Shown here piece after piece: positions 3,403 through 63,686 of a DNA stretch of 64,000 bases. The translations under genes and the position numbers were made by a program. The stretch comes from a bacterium (GTDB taxonomy: Bacteria > BMS3Abin14): NCBI GenBank assembly GCA_029210965.1, contig JARGFZ010000001.1, positions 1 to 64,000 of the forward strand. The letters run 5' to 3'. Numbering within the stretch: position 1 is the first letter of the stretch; the number at the start of each line of letters is the position of its first letter. Under the pieces are notes generated by a model. The model did not search any database, was not told the origin of the DNA, and was given only the letters and a program-made list of their open reading frames with translations.

Positions 3403-4098
3403 TTCGTTCTCCGATTCGCCTGTTTAATGAGCAGTTCCTTGTCCAACACAGGATGGACCTTCCACCAGACCGATTATAACGCGCCCGGCTCTGTCTAAAA
3501 AATTGGGCCCTTGATCCCCCGTTGCCGCTCCAGGTAGCACTTTCTGTGCTGAATAATGCAGAATAAATGGCAAGTAACATGCCAATAGGGTTACTTGTGA
3601 AGACACCTAATATCTAAGAAAAATGATTTCAGAGGATCCTGCTGCAGGAAAAAGTGTGTAACATATAGACACCCATATTTCAAAATTTGACACATGAGTG
3701 CGGTTTAGGCTGTCGGGGTTCGAGGATGCTCGTAGGTACTTAAAACCTGAAAGCGAAGAGTCCGACGACGCCACGCCTCGGATCTCGGGCGCAGGCTCGG
3801 GCTCGGGATTTTACCGATCACCGATTACTGATCACCGATCACTGCCCGCCCTTTGGGCTTTGGAGTACCCTTCCCCTTACTGCTTTTCTCCTGGCTCCAA
3901 GGTACTGAAATAATAGGTACTGCCCTTTTGCCAGGTCACTCAGTCGCCCAGTCGGAAGTTTCCCCGCGTCCCCGTGTCCTCGTGTCTATTTCAACCTCAC
4001 GGCTACTGGCTAATGAATTCCGGGTACTGATTCAAACCTACTGGCTTATTGACAGTCTCCTGTTTATGACAGAAGATGCCGATTTAAACCAAAAAGTT
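3403..4098. other. Intergenic region, no gene seen
   Basis: About 700 bp without a convincing gene. It holds degenerate word repeats: GCTCGGGCTCGGG near 3797, an ACCGATCACCGATTACTGATC-type stretch at 3813-3844 and CAGGTCACTCAGTCGCCCAG near 3931, whose near-inverse recurs at about 8383-8408. Short open frames at 3380-3606 and 3698-4173 have no family likeness and mostly follow the repeat words. Confidence 0.6.
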
Positions 4099-4251
4099 GA
4101 TGGCTTTGTAAAAAGTCATCAAGGCGCCCCGAGGGGGGCGCCCAAATCAATGACTGCGGATGTAAGTCATTGATTTGTAAGGAAAGTGAAAATGACACTT
4201 TTTCCTTTCCGAGGAGCAAAAAGCCGATTACGGACTTTTTGCGACCCTATC
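4099..4251 (+). mobile_element. MITE copy B
   Basis: 153-bp copy of the same element as at 1542-1695, in the opposite orientation. Ends GATGGCTTTGTAAAAAGTC and (inverted) GATAGGGTCGCAAAAAGTC. Flanked on both sides by AAAGTT (4093-4098 and 4252-4257), a 6-bp target duplication. It ends 50 bp before the nadE start, so it probably lies in or just upstream of the nadE promoter region. Confidence 0.93.
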
Positions 4252-4301
4252 AAAGTTAGGTATTTTCAGGTTTATCAAACCCAATAAACAACACGGACCC
4301 G

Positions 4302-7273: not shown

Positions 7274-8320
7274 ATGCAAACTAAATCCAGATTATACCTG
7301 CGCTTCCTACCTGCCAGATACCTTGCAACAATCACAACTATCCTCCTGACTGTTCTCGTGACCGGTACCTGTTGGCCGGCTGATCCAGGGGAGCCGGTGG
7401 CCCACGTAAACGGAGTCACGATCTTTGAATTGGACCTTTCATGCGCTATTGAAGCCGCTTTGGTCAGGAACCTGATATCGCAGCGCGGGGATATTGAAAA
7501 CCCTGGTTTCGACAAGGATCAAGTTGACAATGAAATAGCTCTGCAGCGACTGGTCGACATCGAACTGCTATACCAGGAAAGTCTCAAACACCGGTTTCAC
7601 GGGCTTACGGAGGAGAGCGTTCAACGTTATCAGCAGGAGGTTAAACGTCTCGGCGGAGAAGACAAATTGATGTCCGTCCTCCAGTGTAACAATATGTCCC
7701 CCGAAGAGTTTCGCAAAACCATATTCAGACGACTATCCATAAAACGTCTTCTGGATAAAGAGGTTTACTCCAGGATCCATGTCACCGAGGACGCGATCAG
7801 GGAATATTACGAACTGAACAGGGACAAATTTCAAAAACCTGAATCGGTCAGAACCAGACAGATAGTTATCCGCGTTTCGTCTGGGGCAGGTATCGACGAA
7901 TGGCGGGAGGCGGAGGGCCGTGCTTATGCCATATACAGGGATGCTTCAACAGGCACCGATTTTATTCGTCTTGTAAGAAGGCATTCTGAGGATCCTGCAA
8001 GTGCCAGCGTCGGTGGAGACATGGGACCTATCCAGAAAGGGGATATTCAGGGCGTCCTGGATACCAGGATTTTCACCTTGAAGGAGGGAACAGTGACCGA
8101 ACCTGTTCGCTCACGCAATGGGTTTCATATAATCAAGATCGTATCCACTACCCCGTCCACCACGAAGTCAATTGAGGAGATGAAACCACATATCATCACG
8201 CGGATAAGACGGGAGCGAGCCCGTGAAATGATCTCACAACTGGTCAGTGATCTCCGACAACAAGCGGAAATAGAGATCATTAAGAGCAGTAGTCAGGAGC
8301 CGGGAGCCGGGAGTCAGTAG
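7274..8320 (+). CDS. Second parvulin-type peptidyl-prolyl isomerase, secreted
   Basis: About 348 residues from Met at 7274, with a hydrophobic signal segment (ARYLATITTILLTVLVTGTCW). A SurA-N-like domain (AHVNGVTIFELDL..) is followed by a parvulin domain (ESVRTRQIVIRV, FIRLVRRHSEDPASASVGGDMG, GFHIIKIV). The frame is open from 7229, only 10 bp after the terminator, but the internal Met gives a better signal peptide; no clear ribosome binding site decides it. It is a paralogue of the preceding gene with lower conservation of the rotamase active site, so catalysis is less sure than chaperone function. The last residues (SSSQEPGAGSQ) are encoded by a short GGAGCCGGGAGTC word repeat that leads into the intergenic region. 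Confidence 0.88.
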   Translation: MQTKSRLYLRFLPARYLATITTILLTVLVTGTCWPADPGEPVAHVNGVTIFELDLSCAIEAALVRNLISQRGDIENPGFDKDQVDNEIALQRLVDIELLYQESLKHRFHGLTEESVQRYQQEVKRLGGEDKLMSVLQCNNMSPEEFRKTIFRRLSIKRLLDKEVYSRIHVTEDAIREYYELNRDKFQKPESVRTRQIVIRVSSGAGIDEWREAEGRAYAIYRDASTGTDFIRLVRRHSEDPASASVGGDMGPIQKGDIQGVLDTRIFTLKEGTVTEPVRSRNGFHIIKIVSTTPSTTKSIEEMKPHIITRIRRERAREMISQLVSDLRQQAEIEIIKSSSQEPGAGSQ

Positions 8321-8714
8321 AAAAGCTAAATTTAAACCTTCCGAACTGGCTACCCTTCGACGCGCTTTGCTTGCTCAGGGCAGGCTGGGCGACTGAGCGA
8401 CCTGGCGAAAAAACGGGTGTGCCTTAATTCCACCTTCCATATTCACTATTCCTTCTCCCAGCCTTTCTGAGTATTTGGAATTAATCATTTCATTTTTTTC
8501 CCGAATCACGAGTCCCGAATCACGAATCACGGCCCTTCCCACTTTACATAGCGGAAAAATTGTATACAATATTCAGGTTACTGTGCAGCCAGCTTTAAGT
8601 TACAAATTCCAAGTTCCATTTTAAAACCTTTTATATCAATTATTTATACAGCTTCACCATCAAATTAAGCGGTTCATTTTCACAATTACACATTTTTAAT
8701 TTCCGGAGGACTTA
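8321..8714. other. Intergenic region with word repeats
   Basis: No gene seen. It contains GGCGACTGAGCGACCTGGCG near 8388 (near-inverse of a stretch at about 3931), repeated CCCGAATCACGA words at 8501-8532, the palindrome at 8559-8570 and AT-rich sequence leading to the acnB ribosome binding site. Confidence 0.6.
8559..8570. promoter_or_regulatory. Palindrome ATTGTATACAAT, possible operator upstream of acnB
   Basis: A perfect 12-bp palindrome 145 bp before the acnB start. It contains TGTATACA, which fits the general yGTMKACy core recognised by many GntR-family repressors. No such regulator is encoded nearby, so the link to acnB is inference. Confidence 0.35.
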
Positions 8715-11321: not shown

Positions 11322-11373
11322 AAGCGGTGAATCGTGAACCGTGAACCGTGAACGGTTACAATCATTAAACGTG

Positions 11374-12174: not shown

Positions 12175-12300
12175 TTTCCTCCCTTTCTAATAGGGGTTTT
12201 CACCTGTCACTTTCCCAGCAAAGCATTCTAGATAACACTTGGTATGGCAGTTGGTGTGTATTGGATCGAGGAAATCATCTACTTGCTCAACATCCTCGCA

Positions 12301-12414
12301 TTTAGAAAACCTTGGATGCTTCTGACCTGCCCCCACGCACCAAGGGTGTCAGGCAGGCAGTGAATTGTGGCATACCCATACTCCCAGCAAGTTAATCATA
12401 CCAGCTATTCATAC
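12301..12414. repeat. 114-bp direct repeat, copy 1 (REP-like hairpin)
   Basis: Identical base for base to 12974-13087. Near its left end CCTGCC..GCACC-aag-GGTG..GGCAGG (12326-12357) forms a bulged hairpin of the REP type. The two copies flank a decayed RAYT transposase fragment. Short open frames overlapping both copies exist only because the repeat is identical. Confidence 0.85.
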
Positions 12415-12473: not shown

Positions 12474-12508
12474 CAGAACGCAGAACGCAGCACGCAGAAC
12501 GCAGGAGA
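12474..12508. repeat. CAGAACGCAGAACG word repeat
   Basis: About four tandem, slightly varied units of CAGAACG/CAGCACG. The same words occur at the end of mazG (62764-62798). Confidence 0.6.
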
Positions 12509-12852: not shown

Positions 12853-12973
12853 CAATGTCATAAATTGCTAAATTCCCGCCCTGACCCCCAGAATTCCCCG
12901 ACAAGGAACGAAAGCTGTCGCATTGTAAATTAATCTAATTTTTCCTTCTGTTATTTACTATCCCCTTTGAGCC

Positions 12974-13087
12974 TTTAGAAAACCTTGGATGCTTCTGACC
13001 TGCCCCCACGCACCAAGGGTGTCAGGCAGGCAGTGAATTGTGGCATACCCATACTCCCAGCAAGTTAATCATACCAGCTATTCATAC
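12974..13087. repeat. 114-bp direct repeat, copy 2 (REP-like hairpin)
   Basis: Identical to 12301-12414 in the same orientation, 673 bp downstream. The perfect identity contrasts with the decay of the transposase fragment between the copies. Confidence 0.85.
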
Positions 13088-13105
13088 TATGATAGAGTCG
13101 ACTGG

Positions 13106-21213: not shown

Positions 21214-21235
21214 TTTTAAACCTTAAAGGCTATCT

Positions 21236-21925
21236 AAACGCAGAGGACGCGAAGGGACGCAGAGAAAACCCAAAAACAAAAAAACTTTAAACTCAGAAAT
21301 AAGTTTAACTCCTGGAAGTCGAGGTGAATAAAGCATTCAAACGACTGGTTTTCCCCCGACTTTCAGGATCACCTCGGCGTTCTGCCGTCTTCACCTTCAG
21401 CTTCGCCGTGACCGCTGCGTTCAGAAAAAATCGCATTTAATAGTAACCGGGATCGCTTCGCATGGTATCGGCTCGCGATGACAACAGGGAAAAGCGAATA
21501 GATTCCGGGTCATCGCTTACGCTCTGCCAAAAATGACGGTGTTGGAAGTATTCCCATAATCAAATTTGCTCTGCCTGTCTCAATGTTTCAACGTCTCCGT
21601 GGTGAAAAAACATCGCCTTTATTTAAACCGTCCTTAACCCGGTTCACCGGTTTTCTCCGCGTTCTTCGCGTCCTCTGCGTTCAGAAAAAATCGCTCTTCT
21701 GGAAACTGCGCCTTAACCCTCATTGAAGCTTTCCTCAGCGTCCTTTGCGCACTCTGCGTTAAAACATATCGCCTTCATAGCAACCGCTCTTTCCCCAGTC
21801 TTAAGGTTTTCTCAGTGTCCTCAGTAACTCTGTGGTAAAAACATCGCCCTTTATAGTAACCGTTTCTTAACCATATTTAAGATTTTACTCTGCGTACTTC
21901 GCACACTCTGCGTTTCAAAGGTTTT
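21236..21925. repeat. Tandem array of ~80-95-bp degenerate units
   Basis: About 690 bp between two minus-strand genes. The words GCGTTCAGAAAAAATCGC (21417, 21678), TCTGTGGTAAAAACATCGCC (and variants at about 21597, 21762, 21830), TAGTAACCG and CTCAGTGTCCTCAGTAACTC recur at intervals of roughly 80-95 bp. The same words occur inverted at 11.49 and 12.61 kb. No gene is seen. The array ends inside the coaBC stop region. Confidence 0.7.
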
Positions 21926-24841: not shown

Positions 24842-24935
24842 CTAAGTGTCTGAGTGTCTAGGTGTCCAGGTGTGGTACGAAAACACCTCGACACTTACCT
24901 ACGTAGTTACGTAGACACCCGGATACCTGCTTACA
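24842..24935. repeat. Word repeat GTGTCTGAGTGTCTAGGTGT and its inverse
   Basis: Tandem GTGTCT[A/G]GGTGTCC-like units (24847-24873), then ACACCTCGACAC..TAGTTACGTAGACACCC in inverse orientation. Lies between ogt and murJ. No gene. Confidence 0.6.
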
Positions 24936-50132: not shown

Positions 50133-50262
50133 CTTCGTAACCTCCATGAATTTGATGGATTCACAAAGAATCCACCAAACAGTCCCGCCATCGGCGGGAC
50201 CGGGGTAGGAGCCACGCCGGCGGCGTGGGACGGATTCACTCCGTCTGGCGGTGGATCACGCC
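50133..50262. other. Hairpin-rich gap between lnt and prfB
   Basis: GTCCCGCCATCGGCGGGAC (50183-50201) and CCACGCC/GGCGTGG (about 50213-50229) form GC-rich stems after the lnt stop. No T-run follows on the minus strand, so a classic terminator is not evident. Confidence 0.4.
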
Positions 50263-51918
50263 CTAGACGTGACCGCCCTTCAAACGCCTCGAAGAGACAT
50301 TCTGCGAGGTTGTCAAAGCAAGTAATAAAACAAAATATACTGATACCACAGCCATACAGAGAATGACAATCCAGTCCCCATATCGAGTATAAAAGGTCTG
50401 TCCTCCTCCGGTTTCTATATCGGCCACAACAACACCTCTTTCTTCCAGGGGTATGCTTTTGACAATTCGGCCCCTGCGATCGATAATGGCTGATATCCCG
50501 GTATTGGCTGCCCGGAGAACCGGAACTCTATTCTCCTTGGCCCTGACAGCAGAAACGGCAAGGTGCTGGAAGGGGCCCCAGGAACGTCCGAACCAGGCAT
50601 CGTTTGTCACGTTTATGAGCATCAATGAACCATCACGCACTTCCTGCCGACTGAGGGAGGGGATGGATATCTCATAACAGATCAAAACTCCCGAAGGCAC
50701 GGGGGTCTTAAAGGGGCCATGCCAGGCACCCCTGGAGAACTCTCCTTCTCCAGGCACCAATTTGTCCACAAAAGACAGCAAGCCGGCCAGGGGAACATAC
50801 TCCCCGAAAGGTACAAGCATGATCTTGTCGTAAAACTCATCCTTCCCACCGGGAGATAAGTGGTAGACACGGTTATAGAGGAGGATCTCCCGCCCTGCTA
50901 TCTCGTAACCTGGACTTCCGAAAATGAGATGGATGTCCAGCTCTGATGTTAACCGGGCCAGCCTTTTTATCAGCTCAGGCTCTGCCTGGTAGAATGAAGG
51001 CACGGCGGTCTCCGGCCAGACAACCAGTTGCGCACCCTCCTGAACCGCTTTTTCTGTAAGGGACAAATATGTGTTCAGCGTTTCTTCCCGCAGGTCTTCC
51101 TCCCATTTGAGTTCCTGCTGGAAGTTTCCCTGGACAACCGCCACTCGCACCCTTTGCCCGGTATTTTGTGTCTGGAGGGGGTACAGGATCAAAGGCAGGA
51201 GGAGCAACACCGCCAGCATCAATCCGACACGAAATTTTTTTTCCTTCTGAACTCTGAACACTGTCCAGATCAGTACATTGACCAGGATGACCCAGAAGGA
51301 CACACCGTGGACACCAGCCAGCCCATAAAAAGCTGTTAATAAAGGTATTTTCCATGTTGCTGATCCCATCAGCAACCACGGGAAAGGTGCCGGGAACCAG
51401 GACCTGGCAACCTCGAGCAGGACCCAGGCGGAGGGAAGGACCAGTATTGGCGTAAATGTGTGTGTGAGTAAGTGGGTAAGGGAGTGAGGGAGTAAGGGAG
51501 TGAAACCCTCCGGTCTTTCCTCAACGCCTTGACTTTGGACTTTGGACATTGGACTTTGGACTGCTCCTGCACCCACGCTGCCCTCCCCCGCTCCCGTCAC
51601 CACCGGTATCAGCATGGCGAACAACCCCACATAAAAGCCATGTATGCCTGCCAGGAAGAGGATCACTCCTTCGGCAAGGGGAAAAGGGATATTTCCGAAA
51701 CTGGTTAGTGAATGGGAAACCCAATTATAGGAGATAAAGAACCAGGCGGTGCCGGCCCCCCATCCGGCAAAAAAGGCTTGACCTTTGCCGGTATCGGAAA
51801 GACCCATAAAAAGGGGAACGAGAGCAACAAGGGACAGGATTCCCACATCCGGACGAGGGAAGGAAAGTATAAGGAGGATCGAGGATGCAAGGACCCGCAG
51901 GAATATACCCGGCTGCAT
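50263..51918 (-). CDS. lnt: Apolipoprotein N-acyltransferase
   Basis: 551 residues. Several N-terminal transmembrane segments, then a periplasmic nitrilase-type domain with the Glu-Lys-Cys triad: Glu in WPETAVPSFYQ, Lys in YDKIMLVPFGEYVP, Cys in GVLICYEISIPS. Adds the third acyl chain to lipoproteins. Start at 51918, 12 bp after the end of a GGAGGGAG stretch in the end of the upstream gene. Between two membrane segments there is an extra stretch of about 40 residues (GAVQSPMSKVQSQG..LTHLLTHTFTP) encoded by word repeats (TTTGGACTTTGGACATTGG, GAGTGAGGGAGTAAGGGAG). It keeps the frame. Confidence 0.94.
   Translation of the reverse strand: MQPGIFLRVLASSILLILSFPRPDVGILSLVALVPLFMGLSDTGKGQAFFAGWGAGTAWFFISYNWVSHSLTSFGNIPFPLAEGVILFLAGIHGFYVGLFAMLIPVVTGAGEGSVGAGAVQSPMSKVQSQGVEERPEGFTPLLPHSLTHLLTHTFTPILVLPSAWVLLEVARSWFPAPFPWLLMGSATWKIPLLTAFYGLAGVHGVSFWVILVNVLIWTVFRVQKEKKFRVGLMLAVLLLLPLILYPLQTQNTGQRVRVAVVQGNFQQELKWEEDLREETLNTYLSLTEKAVQEGAQLVVWPETAVPSFYQAEPELIKRLARLTSELDIHLIFGSPGYEIAGREILLYNRVYHLSPGGKDEFYDKIMLVPFGEYVPLAGLLSFVDKLVPGEGEFSRGAWHGPFKTPVPSGVLICYEISIPSLSRQEVRDGSLMLINVTNDAWFGRSWGPFQHLAVSAVRAKENRVPVLRAANTGISAIIDRRGRIVKSIPLEERGVVVADIETGGGQTFYTRYGDWIVILCMAVVSVYFVLLLALTTSQNVSSRRLKGGHV
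51469..51563. repeat. Word repeats inside lnt
   Basis: Forward strand: GTGAGTAAGTGGGTAAGGG, GAGTGAGGGAGTAAGGGAG and TTTGGACTTTGGACATTGG, all of 7-9-bp periodicity. They resemble the intergenic word repeats and sit in frame in lnt, encoding the variable loop. Confidence 0.7.
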
Positions 51919-51925
51919 GTGTGGG

Positions 51926-52753
51926 CTAAGCTCCCTCCTCCTCAACACTGACCCTGATGGTGGACACCTTCCTGGAGTCAGCTTCCTCCACAGTGAACAG
52001 CAGGGTTCCATACCGGCCCTGCTCCCCCTGAACGGGAACATGACCCATGAGATGGCTCAGGAAACCACCGAGTGTGTCATATTCACCGCGGGGCAATTGA
52101 ACATCCAACTCATCCTCAACATCCTCAATATGGGACCGGGCATCGAGAATATAACTTCCGTCGTCCAACCGTGATATACCAGACTGCTCAACAGGATCAT
52201 GCTCATCCTGGATCTCCCCCACGATCTCCTCCAGAATATCCTCAATAGTGATTATCCCGGAAGTACCACCGTACTCGTCAACAGCCACCGCCATGTGGAC
52301 CCTTCTCACCTTGAACTCCTTCAGCAGGTCGGCGGTAGTTTTCGTCTCGGGGATAAAATATGCCTTGCGGCATACGGATTTGATGCTGATCTCTTCCGGG
52401 AGCTTACCCCAGAGCTTGAGCAGGTCCTTCGCATAGAGAATACCAGTGATATGATCGATGTCTCCCTCGTAAACAGGTATCCGGCTGTGGCCGGCTGCGA
52501 TGATGGTTTCCAGAACTTCGATGATCGGTGTTGTTATCTCCACCGCCACCATCTCAGTCCTTGGAACCAGGATCTCCCTTACCAGGGTATCTCCCAGATC
52601 CAGAACAGCGTCGATCATGGCATGTTCATCCCGGTTGATCACCCCTTCCTGTTCGCCTACATCGATGAGGCTGTGGATCTCTTCCTCAGTGACGCTGGTT
52701 CTCGCTATTTTCCTGAACAGATTCTTGATGCTGTTAAAAATGCCTTCTGCCAT
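51926..52753 (-). CDS. CorC/HlyC-family CBS-domain protein
   Basis: 275 residues. A short N-terminal helix (SVTEEEIHSLIDVGEQEGVI), two CBS domains (REILVPRTEMVAVE.., VRRVHMAVAVDEYGGTSGIITIEDILEEIVGEI) and the CorC_HlyC transporter-associated domain (SRLDDGSYILDARSHIEDVEDEL..). There is no membrane DUF21 domain. In many proteobacteria the order ybeY-corC-lnt is kept, as here. Suggested role in magnesium/cobalt homeostasis. Confidence 0.92.
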   Translation of the reverse strand: MAEGIFNSIKNLFRKIARTSVTEEEIHSLIDVGEQEGVINRDEHAMIDAVLDLGDTLVREILVPRTEMVAVEITTPIIEVLETIIAAGHSRIPVYEGDIDHITGILYAKDLLKLWGKLPEEISIKSVCRKAYFIPETKTTADLLKEFKVRRVHMAVAVDEYGGTSGIITIEDILEEIVGEIQDEHDPVEQSGISRLDDGSYILDARSHIEDVEDELDVQLPRGEYDTLGGFLSHLMGHVPVQGEQGRYGTLLFTVEEADSRKVSTIRVSVEEEGA

Positions 52754-52903
52754 TGTTATTGGGTTACTCCCTGTTTAAGTTCTCATCTCAAATCTCAGAT
52801 CTCAAATCTCAAAATAGATCCAGGACCCAAAAGAGAATCAATAAACTATTTGAATTTTATTCTGTGTTCTGTGTTCTGTGTTCTACATTCCACATTCCAC
52901 ATT
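52754..52903. repeat. Word repeats between ybeY and corC
   Basis: TCTCAAATCTCAGATCTCAAA (52784-52812) followed by TGTGTTCTGTGTTCTGTG and CATTCCACATTCCACATTC (to about 52905, into the ybeY stop region). GAGATCTGAGATTTGAGATG, the inverse theme, is at 61907-61927. No gene. Confidence 0.7.
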
Positions 52904-53332
52904 CTACTCCGATGATACATACCTTTCTTCCTCTTCCCTCATAGCCCTGGCAGCTTCCTCGCCCCTTTCATGGTCGAACCCCAGAAGGTGCAAAACTCCG
53001 TGGACAAGCAGCCGTTTCATCTCCACAGGGACTCCATGTCCCAGTTCAGAGGCCTGTTTTTGTGCAGTTTCCCAGGAAATGACCACATCCCCAAGCAGCT
53101 GGTGAGTACCTGCCGGCCCTTCACCCTCCAGTTGAGAGAAGGAGAGAACATCTGTTGGTCGGTTCATATCCCGGTAAAGATGGTTTAATGAACGGATTTC
53201 CTCATCATCAGTGATGAGGATGCTGAGTTCCGCTTCACTCCTGCCCGAGTCGTCTAATATTCTGGCTGCCAGGTCCATCAAGGTCTTCCGATAAAAGTCC
53301 ATTTCCGGATTCCGGCTCAGCAATTGTATCAT
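52904..53332 (-). CDS. ybeY: Endoribonuclease YbeY
   Basis: About 142 residues. The zinc motif HGVLHLLGFDH and LSILITDDEEIRSLNHLYRDMNRPTDVLSF are diagnostic. Takes part in 16S rRNA 3' maturation and ribosome quality control. The start is unsure: GTG at 53365 and ATG at 53332 are in frame, both inside the 3' end of the upstream gene; 53332 fits the usual N-terminus better. The overlap of ~100 bp with the upstream gene is longer than usual. Confidence 0.93.
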   Translation of the reverse strand: MIQLLSRNPEMDFYRKTLMDLAARILDDSGRSEAELSILITDDEEIRSLNHLYRDMNRPTDVLSFSQLEGEGPAGTHQLLGDVVISWETAQKQASELGHGVPVEMKRLLVHGVLHLLGFDHERGEEAARAMREEEERYVSSE

Positions 53333-62000: not shown

Positions 62001-62798
62001 GTGACTGTCACAAAACGACCCATTGATGAACTTCTCGAGATCATGACGATACTCAGAGGGCCTGAAGGCTGCCCGTGGGACAAAGGGCAGACCCACGAAT
62101 CACTGAAGCCCTACGTCGTGGAGGAAGCTTATGAACTGGTGGAAGCGGTGGAAGGAGGTCAGAACGGCGAGATCAAGGAAGAGCTTGGTGACCTTCTGCT
62201 CCAGATTATTTTCCACAGCCAGATAGCCGCGGAAGCCGGCAGATTTGACTTCGATGACGTAGTCCAGGGGATCATCGAAAAGCTCCTGCGGCGCCATCCC
62301 CATGTTTTTGGCGGGGAAAGGGCCGCCAATGAAGCGGAGGCTCTTCACAACTGGGAGCGTATTAAAGCTGAAACGGAAGGGAAAAAGAAAACAAAAAGGC
62401 ACCCGGGCACCCCTATCCTCCACCGCGCGCTGCGAATGCAGGAAAAGGCAGTGAGTTTCGGCTTCGACTGGGAGGAGACATCCCAACTGTTCGAGAAGTT
62501 GGAAGAGGAGATCACAGAAGTACAAGAGGCCGTCGCCAGTGGCAACCGTGAGGAGATCACCGAGGAGATAGGCGACCTGCTGTTTATGGCGGTCAACTTG
62601 TCCCGCTACCTCGATATCCATCCCGAGGACGCACTGGAAAGGTCCATGAACAAGTTCACCAAACGGTTTCGATCTATGGAAGAAATGGCCGCATTGGATA
62701 ACCGGCCCCTTGAGGATATGGAGCTTGGCGAGATGGAGAAGTATTGGGAAAGAGCAAAAATTCAGAATGCAGGACGCAGAACGCAGAACACAGAATGA
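62001..62798 (+). CDS. mazG: Nucleoside triphosphate pyrophosphohydrolase
   Basis: 265 residues from GTG 62001, with GGAGG 10 bp upstream; the frame is open to 61938 but without support. Two MazG domains: LLEIMTILRGPEGCPWDKGQTHESLKPYVVEEAYEL (EExxE metal motif) and FEKLEEEITEVQEAVASGNREEITEEIGDLLFMAVNL. Hydrolyses (d)NTPs, in E. coli also affecting ppGpp. The last residues (KIQNAGRRTQNTE) are encoded by an intergenic-type CAGAACGCAGAACACAG word repeat, so the natural C-terminus has been replaced or extended. Confidence 0.95.
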   Translation: MTVTKRPIDELLEIMTILRGPEGCPWDKGQTHESLKPYVVEEAYELVEAVEGGQNGEIKEELGDLLLQIIFHSQIAAEAGRFDFDDVVQGIIEKLLRRHPHVFGGERAANEAEALHNWERIKAETEGKKKTKRHPGTPILHRALRMQEKAVSFGFDWEETSQLFEKLEEEITEVQEAVASGNREEITEEIGDLLFMAVNLSRYLDIHPEDALERSMNKFTKRFRSMEEMAALDNRPLEDMELGEMEKYWERAKIQNAGRRTQNTE

Positions 62799-62891
62799 GA
62801 ACAAAAGCGGATAGCCGATCATTTTGAATCTCGAATCCATTTTGAGAACTGAAATTTGAGGTTTGAGATTCGTTTTAACCGGGAGAAAAAA

Positions 62892-63482: not shown

Positions 63483-63686
63483 CGAACCGTAACGGGGTAT
63501 CGAAGACCGCCTGACGCGGTGACACGGCGACGCGGCGGAAAAAAATACGCACAACTGGCCATAACTATAAACGGCAACACCGTGTATTTGAGGATTGCTC
63601 CCCGACACACCGATACCCCGACATTTCGATACATGTGTCTCGCGCTGGTTTTTTAGACAAAGCGAGACCAGACCAAGGAGGTAAAA
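63483..63686. other. Gap with short repeated words
   Basis: GACGCGGTGACACGGCGACGCGGCGG (63513-63538) and CACACCGATACCCCGACATTTCG (63606-63628) are word repeats; a related ACACCGATACCCCGGCACTCC lies at 46008. No gene. A good AAGGAGG precedes the next start. Confidence 0.45.

Follow-up and report, generated by a model that had tools for sequence, protein, structure and literature searches.

Tandem arrays of short words, typically four heptads or octads made up of a fixed core and a free base, are real, specific and widespread in the genus studied here, and represent a variant of a known, unexplained kind of repeat. The arrays have a characteristic size of four boxes, they point away from the adjacent gene and favour its 3′ end, and two arrays of the same word commonly face each other across a gap. 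Between sister genomes the same gaps tend to stay occupied while the word itself is exchanged. Contig C1, of which the window is the initial 64 kb, belongs to a 3.19-Mb draft genome in 157 contigs (G000). Comparisons were made primarily with a sister genome whose genes are approximately 93–95% identical (G001) and with a second species of the genus (G002). Genes were called with a custom script, and arrays were included at a score of at least 11 for the genome-wide counts and the border-direction test, and of at least 9 for the same-gap word-pair test.

Abundance and anatomy of the arrays

The gap at 52,784-52,905 is flanked by a YbeY gene and a CorC gene (domain search: YbeY; CorC_HlyC) and holds two arrays, each reading away from its gene. 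The word of the array at ybeY is also present in the sister genome, where it has nine units and a different interior. Arrays of the window include the following:

52785..52813, + strand: four ATCTCA-N units (N = A, G, A, A) that lie 31 nt ahead of the corC-like start and point away from this gene
52860..52907, − strand: TAGAATG/CAGAACA word, about seven units, starting inside the stop codon of ybeY and pointing away from this gene
3813..3842, strand not given: four ACCGATC-type heptads, mid-gap
3961..3986, strand not given: three TCCCCGTG octads
8287..8313, + strand: CAGNAGC-type heptads overlapping the 3′ end of a rotamase (PPIase) gene, reading away
8499..8531, strand not given: AATCACG / CCCGAAT heptads, sharing a gap with the preceding array
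11327..11356, + strand: four GTGAA-type heptads, 5 nt past the aconitase B stop codon, reading away
12474..12504, + strand: four ACGCAG-N (CAGNACG) units, mid-gap
21653..21680, strand not given: three TTCTCCGCG-like nonamers; the gap at 21.3-21.9 kb has several such degenerate copies
24842..24873, + strand: four GTGTCYNG-type octads
51531..51562, − strand: four CCAAAG-N units within an apolipoprotein N-acyltransferase-like ORF, kept in the sister genome
61905..61931, − strand: four ATCTCA-N units upstream of mazG, reading away from mazG
62759..62795, + strand: five CAGNAYG heptads that make up the final mazG codons, with the stop codon directly after, reading away from mazG
62846..62873, − strand: degenerate array (ATCTCAA ACCTCAA ATTTCAG TTCTCAA) upstream of a chalcone-isomerase-like gene, reading away; seen by eye, under the array score threshold
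63512..63537, + strand: three GACGCGG/GACACGG-N octads, 3′ of the chalcone-isomerase-like gene, reading away
63601..63633, − strand: GTRTCGG-N-type octads before the next gene, the facing partner of 63512..63537; seen by eye (TRF row 63600-63623)

The initial annotation had named ten places with tandem words between 3.8 and 63.5 kb, and we found words at every one. Word frequencies no higher than in shuffled intergenic DNA, which it had named as the refuting outcome, were not observed, the arrays lying far above simulation. At period 7, the window contains 10 places with at least 12/14 matches, compared with a mean of 0.1 and a maximum of 1 in 20 order-3 Markov simulations; at period 8 there are four places (0.1 simulated). 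Across 774,805 unmasked bases of G000 there are 222 period-7 arrays in non-coding and 28 in coding sequence, where 10 simulations averaged 0.1; these figures correspond to 147 non-coding and 4.5 coding arrays per 100 kb. Period-8 arrays number 58 and nine, respectively (simulated means of 0.1). The second species is similarly provided, with 134 non-coding and 20 coding period-7 arrays in 392,600 bases. Scaled up by extrapolation, a G000 genome would hold about a thousand period-7 arrays. The unit lengths of 7–12 bp that had been proposed span too broad a range; period 7 is dominant, followed by period 8 and a few of 6 and 9, whereas periods 4, 5, 10 and 11 are at chance level (two arrays at period 10 and none at period 11) and period 12 is weak (six non-coding, seven coding). 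The suggestion that nearly every larger gap carries such words proved too strong, as arrays were found in 22/70 gaps of 40-100 nt, 45/97 of 100-200 nt, 44/90 of 200-400 nt, 44/80 of 400-800 nt and 33/44 of those longer still. The vocabulary is large, with 98 consensus words among 281 arrays, most of them not G-rich.

A typical unit consists of a fixed hexamer followed by one free base, as in ATCTCA-N, ACGCAG-N and CCAAAG-N. In 38 ATCTCA-N arrays of G000 (132 units), each core position is 95–100% fixed while the seventh base is G in 64 units, A in 49, T in 14 and C in five. The same pattern of fixed core and free base is seen to varying degree for CCAAAG-N, where N is near uniform, and ACGCAG-N in both G000 and G002, and likewise for AGCCAG-N, ACCCAG-N and GTGATT-N; ATGTAG-A is an exception, with N fixed and a core that varies mainly by transitions. 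Octads, judged by eye, look like seven bases plus one (GACGCGG-N, GTRTCGG-N) or take the form GTGCAC-NN, and four units are common among them. Point changes between units, which had been described before, are present without being evenly spread, and are concentrated at one unit position: the fraction falling in a single column is 0.52 against 0.37 expected in G000, and 0.59 against 0.39 in G002. The number of units peaks at four. ATCTCA chains in G000 comprise two units in seven cases, three in nine, four in 30 and five in three, so that 30 of the 49 chains of at least two units have exactly four; in G002, four-unit chains make up 9/9 for CCAAAG and 11/14 for ACGCAG. Overall, 105 of 250 arrays in G000 and 75 of 154 in G002 round to four units. 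Since the units abut with one free base between cores, instead of being identical and set apart by unique spacers of similar length, they do not have the form of CRISPR, and the absence of a palindromic unit agrees with the earlier view that they are not REP elements either.

The window holds other repetitive sequence as well. Within the apolipoprotein N-acyltransferase-like gene (50263-52041, minus strand), positions 51464-51562 combine an octad array with the four CCAAAG-N units, apparently in frame. At 21220-21922, degenerate nonamers of the CTCYGCGTT type recur in several blocks of about 80 nt with common flanking phrases, a composite repeat unlike the heptads. About 100 nt are nearly identical at 12300-12410 and 12970-13090, twice within one gap. 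A dispersed, MITE-like repeat of about 165 bp, with inverted ends (GACTTTTTGCGA..) and internal hairpins, lies at 1533-1707 and 4090-4260 of the window and at C1:269006-269168; related copies number at least two dozen in the 775-kb sample, and the sister genome has dozens of matches. Rfam and tRNA searches of the window gave no matches.

Polarity and position at gene borders

Arrays that share a gap and a word tend to face each other. Among same-gap array pairs, those with a word similarity of at least 0.7 were inverted in 34 cases and direct in six of 166 pairs in G000 (5.5–5.8% at random), and inverted in 21 and direct in five of 54 pairs in G002 (3.8% at random); this excess of inversion does not reach beyond about 200 nt. 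For eleven word cores, neighbours less than 300 nt apart were facing in 40 cases, back-to-back in none and in the same direction in nine, a count from which 12 of 61 pairs with negative spacing (AGATCT self-overlap) were dropped and in which three of the 40 were entered under two similar cores, leaving 37 distinct.

The direction of an array is also tied to the gene next to it. At 3′ ends, every array lying within 30 nt (79 of 79) points away from the gene, including 31/31 single arrays, and so do 33 of the 35 near 5′ ends; at distances above 30 nt the arrays are divided almost evenly (41 away, 37 the other way, n = 78). Because word direction in this gene-relative count was set from the data, the test was repeated without preset words: for border arrays of the same word in different gaps, outward direction agreed in 570 comparisons and disagreed in 19 in G000, and in 177 and 4 in G002, these being pairwise counts of non-independent events. 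Octad polarity in G002 is weak (5 versus 3). What the initial annotation had described as recurrence in inverse form thus goes beyond recurrence and amounts to a rule of facing pairs and outward polarity.

Arrays are placed close to gene ends, with a preference for the 3′ side. In G000, 57 arrays start 0-10 nt past a stop codon, where placing them at random within their gaps would give 15.3. The end of the gene is overlapped by 22 arrays, whereas three sit 0-5 nt ahead of a start codon, against an expectation of 6.8. In gaps of at least 60 nt, an array is found at 110/350 3′ borders and 52/358 5′ borders in G000, and at 47/164 and 26/168, respectively, in G002. With both genomes combined, 3′ borders carry an array in 43/114 convergent and 114/400 tandem cases, and 5′ borders in 65/400 tandem and 13/126 divergent cases. 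A link to intrinsic terminators was considered and is weakened by an equal frequency of terminator-like hairpins, which in G000 occur behind 9/110 3′ ends with an array and 21/240 without.

Turnover and distribution among genomes

Several orthologous gaps of the two sister genomes contain wholly different words, often as a matched pair. At C1:122,705-122,795, an ATCTCA facing pair in G000 corresponds to a CCAAAG facing pair in G001, and at C1:124,135-124,207, GGAAGG corresponds to CCTGGTC. Occupancy is nevertheless associated between the sisters: of 39 orthologous gaps, 10 have an array in both genomes, three in G000 only, two in G001 only and 24 in neither (Fisher p = 2.4e-5), and the association persists among gaps of 80-600 nt (10, 3, 2 and 16 in the same order; p = 4.5e-4). 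Occupancy of a gap thus persists between the sisters even when its word does not.

Whole gap contents have also been replaced. Seven of 15 array gaps were replaced (less than 10% shared 11-mers), as were seven of 24 array-free orthologous gaps by the same measure, so replacement is not confined to gaps with arrays. The flanks of replaced gaps are more diverged (0.098 near and 0.081 far) than those elsewhere (0.054-0.056 near and 0.056-0.069 far), which fits either recombination with a less closely related strain or simply a longer period of divergence. At C1:126,285 and C1:215,310 the gap interior is kept and the arrays are changed, and at C10:27697-27978 the gap content is replaced exactly between the array edges. 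In arrays that have been kept, the most variable column has diverged at 6/32 positions and the core at 13/223 (p = 0.02), with 168/2029 in the flanks, a contrast that draws on nine arrays of 278 queried, kept with their flanks, against G001 sequence covering part of the genome and with the N column picked post hoc. This hints at selection on the cores.

Two further observations concern the comparison of the sisters. Insertions in G000 at window positions 50152-50320, at C1:88215-88403 and at C1:134333-134546 have a near-clean empty site in G001 and are useful for delimiting other dispersed elements. A bidirectional intrinsic terminator at C1:136341-136513 has kept its place in G001 with a partly changed stem sequence.

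Of 386 genomes, 15 contain ATCTCANATCTCANATCTCA: 168, 41 and 153 times in three genomes of the genus, 19 and 55 times in two of nine other family genomes, 10 and 3 times in two genomes of the f151 family, and at most three times in each of the eight remaining positive genomes. Period-7 arrays are less dense than in the genus in short stretches of a genome from another family (G027), which has 46 non-coding ones per 100 kb, 19 of 38 arrays having four units. The density is likewise lower in short stretches of the second genome of the family with arrays (G006), where none of 15 neighbours was an inverted pair of the same word, and G003 and G004 have few. Scans of viral contigs returned 18 and seven stretches, mostly of homogeneous arrays.

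Searches for a trans-acting factor covered PF01797, RVT_1, RHH_1 and the protein clusters of the G000 sample, and among these none was found. REP transposases are not expanded, each of 12 genomes having 0-3 PF01797 matches, which also bears out the earlier distinction from REP elements. RVT_1 reverse transcriptases gave no match in the array-rich genomes G001, G002 and G027 (91, 81 and 94% complete), and RHH_1 (PF01402) gave 0-3 matches per genome, with none in the array-rich G001 and G027. When 578 proteins from the G000 sample were clustered, no more than four clusters reached four members (23, 10, four and four), and, judged by how their sequences begin, these appear to be signalling, ABC-transporter, GTPase and ATP-synthase proteins, not DNA-binding ones.

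Candidate explanations and related systems

The architecture is the same as that of heptad arrays in Xanthomonas campestris/axonopodis (GGGANTN) and Nostoc/Anabaena (GGGGA(C/T)T), reached independently. The Xanthomonas and Nostoc arrays are likewise intergenic heptads with free positions and a four-unit mode, which has been linked to G-quadruplexes; they lie at most 50 bp from an ORF, on its coding strand when downstream of it and on its non-coding strand when upstream; some overlap stop codons, and convergent pairs number 70 and 75 in two Xanthomonas genomes (PMC4692102). The differences are that each of those organisms has one G-rich word, whereas many words, mostly not G-rich, and octads occur here, and that 83% of Xanthomonas arrays have been kept at the same gene context while here words swap between sisters (PMC4692102). 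In Geobacter metallireducens, four tandem heptads at 49 sites and paired octad/heptad sites (classes 1-3) have been described as putative regulator sites; GGACCGG (H4) and class 1 share the four tandem units, and further shared features are units of 7-8 nt with degenerate positions, opposite-strand pairs at variable distance and dozens of copies (PMC2700814). Consensus words of their own and recognition by IHF/HU are further traits by which the Geobacter sites are defined. That system comprises a handful of classes, and, compared by description only, the sections consulted report neither polarity nor free-base rules (PMC2700814). Marine Beggiatoaceae have intergenic direct TAACTGA heptads of two to six units that are patchy across phyla, as here; they differ in having a single word with few variants, which lies mostly right before start codons, whereas 3′ ends are favoured here (PMC4679880). 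Our literature search, whose coverage leaves most subscription journals outside, turned up no account of arrays that obey these rules with many words.

The most economical explanation appears to be that the arrays are border recognition sites read as sequence by a protein, with four boxes on a 7- or 8-bp pitch oriented away from the gene. This reading rests on the preserved core, the disregarded seventh base and the unit number of about four on that pitch, taken together with known binders of contiguous 7-bp boxes. Ribbon-helix-helix dimers of omega2/ParB-pSM19035 bind 7-bp WATCACW heptads in contiguous, non-palindromic boxes, both direct and facing as here, and at least four contiguous boxes are required for full ParA stimulation (PMC9499535). 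Omega2 sites have 7-10 boxes at plasmid promoters and a cognate protein (PMC9499535), whereas the families searched here yielded none. We give the reading as a whole a substantial chance, somewhat short of even. The border sites are probably protein-bound: a DNA-binding factor would read the cores and skip the free base, four protomers would form one complex, and two complexes would face each other across the gap. Factors with different words would do the same job, which would make words interchangeable. Their effect, and here we are guessing, might be an exit-facing polar block or insulator for machinery leaving the gene, in sense at 3′ borders and antisense at 5′ borders. Whole gap alleles would be replaced, in at least some cases through recombination with more diverged strains, so that words spread and swap, while slippage would be secondary and give rise to the long homogeneous arrays. 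Against border sites of this kind, the searches above gave no candidate protein family, dozens of words would require many factors, which makes the number of words awkward, and words swap faster than the sites of ordinary regulators. A terminator or insulator role has the further difficulty that arrays also occur within likely operons, e.g. ybeY-corC-lnt.

The initial annotation had left the origin open between slippage, a copying process and an unknown element. Simple sequence repeats born by slippage and later point-mutated (long SSRs of 5-11 nt, with heptads favoured by the polymerase footprint) are an unlikely source of the arrays in general. Cyanobacterial STRR heptads and long SSRs are intergenic heptanucleotide tandem repeats, as are the arrays here, from which they differ in being of slippage type with variable length, and we know of no polarity rule for them. 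Tandem copies in excess of chance with period 7 favoured are what slippage would produce, and a dominance of period 7 has been noted for other genomes (cited in PMC4679880). Some long arrays are homogeneous (CAGAACG x12 at C2:66041; CTTGCAC x11 at C2:98611), as are most of those found in viral contigs, and in G000 arrays of more than five units have more identical neighbouring units (123/255 versus 169/608). Long arrays of G002 are not clearly more homogeneous (36/140 versus 96/398), however, and slippage accounts neither for a unit number that peaks at four, nor for the same position being free across dozens of arrays of one word, nor for an orientation tied to the gene border. Neighbouring free bases are alike less often than expected for ATCTCA in G000 and G002 and as often as expected for ACGCAG in G002. 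In G000 they exceed expectation for ACGCAG (21 versus 14.0) and CCAAAG (10 versus 6.1), and some slippage is therefore possible there. Slippage thus suits a minority, the long homogeneous arrays, and plain slippage is disfavoured for arrays of four units. Copying from array to array or arm to arm is not supported, since free-base strings show no excess identity in either comparison; among four-unit arrays, identical strings are not in excess (lowest p 0.077, from six arrays). Taken together, free bases that are independent between arms and between arrays argue against slippage, copying and selection for hairpin pairing, and the unknown element is the reading left standing.

Equally doubtful is the proposal that the arrays are terminal inverted repeats of mobile or exchangeable intergenic cassettes, similar to MITEs or REPINs. 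Facing polarity at both gap edges and the replacement of whole gap contents between sisters, sometimes exactly between array edges, speak for it. However, all-against-all BLAST of 381 gaps revealed no shared interiors, only array words, the ~165-bp dispersed repeat and shorter repeats, free-base strings are not copied between arrays, and REP transposases are as scarce as noted above. The end of the same-word inverted excess at about 200 nt also leaves no autonomous element of kilobase size in the sample.

Hairpins in RNA or DNA, in which the facing arms pair as terminators, mRNA stabilisers or cruciforms, have a slightly poorer prospect. The arms do have complementary cores, 3′ ends are preferred, most of all in convergent gaps, and stems built from heptad repeats are reportedly known from P6b of the Nostoc tRNA-Leu intron. 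A stem would select the seventh base like the other six, yet the free bases of pair arms match 64 times against 69.4 expected, with 881 of 1000 permutations at least as high; these unmatched bases indicate that pairing is not what keeps the cores. Moreover, single arrays follow the same polarity, and pairing does not require the same words at dozens of loci.

Templated writing would be more exotic, and we rate its chances as low. A hypothetical polymerase would add about four units of hexamer plus random base to both 3′ ends at a break in the gap, after which the ends are joined. In a genome-wide form, which we find just as hard to credit, a hypothetical non-RVT_1 enzyme would write some four such units outward, with interchangeable words and later overwriting. 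Writing would account for the polarity of an outward 3′ extension, the presence of one word on either side with free bases that vary independently, the four units, the unrelated interiors and the swapped words. It is opposed by the lack of RVT_1 matches in the three array-rich genomes, by the hint of core selection in kept arrays, and by the diverged flanks of replaced gaps, which fit recombination or age instead; we know of no enzyme of this kind. Further candidates are hexamers with a penultimate A (BREX, type IIG sites), tRNA anticodon-loop templates and uptake sequences.

G-quadruplexes, proposed for the Xanthomonas arrays with the same four-unit mode, polarity and pairing (PMC4692102), are most improbable here; they could apply to G-rich words but cannot be the general reason for four units, given that 72/250 arrays in G000 and 62/154 in G002 have at least four GG runs but only 4/250 and 5/154 have four GGG runs, and that the commonest word, ATCTCA-N, contains no GGG run at all.

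Accounts of four-unit heptad arrays have so far been scattered, treating them as G-quadruplexes in Xanthomonas, as regulator sites in Geobacter, as translation signals in Beggiatoa and as SSRs in cyanobacteria. That a single genus uses the same architecture with dozens of words shows that the rules are independent of the word. Such word-independent rules remove G-quadruplexes as a general account and make slippage insufficient, and they provide a testable system for what reads or writes the words. If the arrays are indeed protein-read border sites, about 30% of 3′ borders in these genomes would carry an unrecognised border signal.
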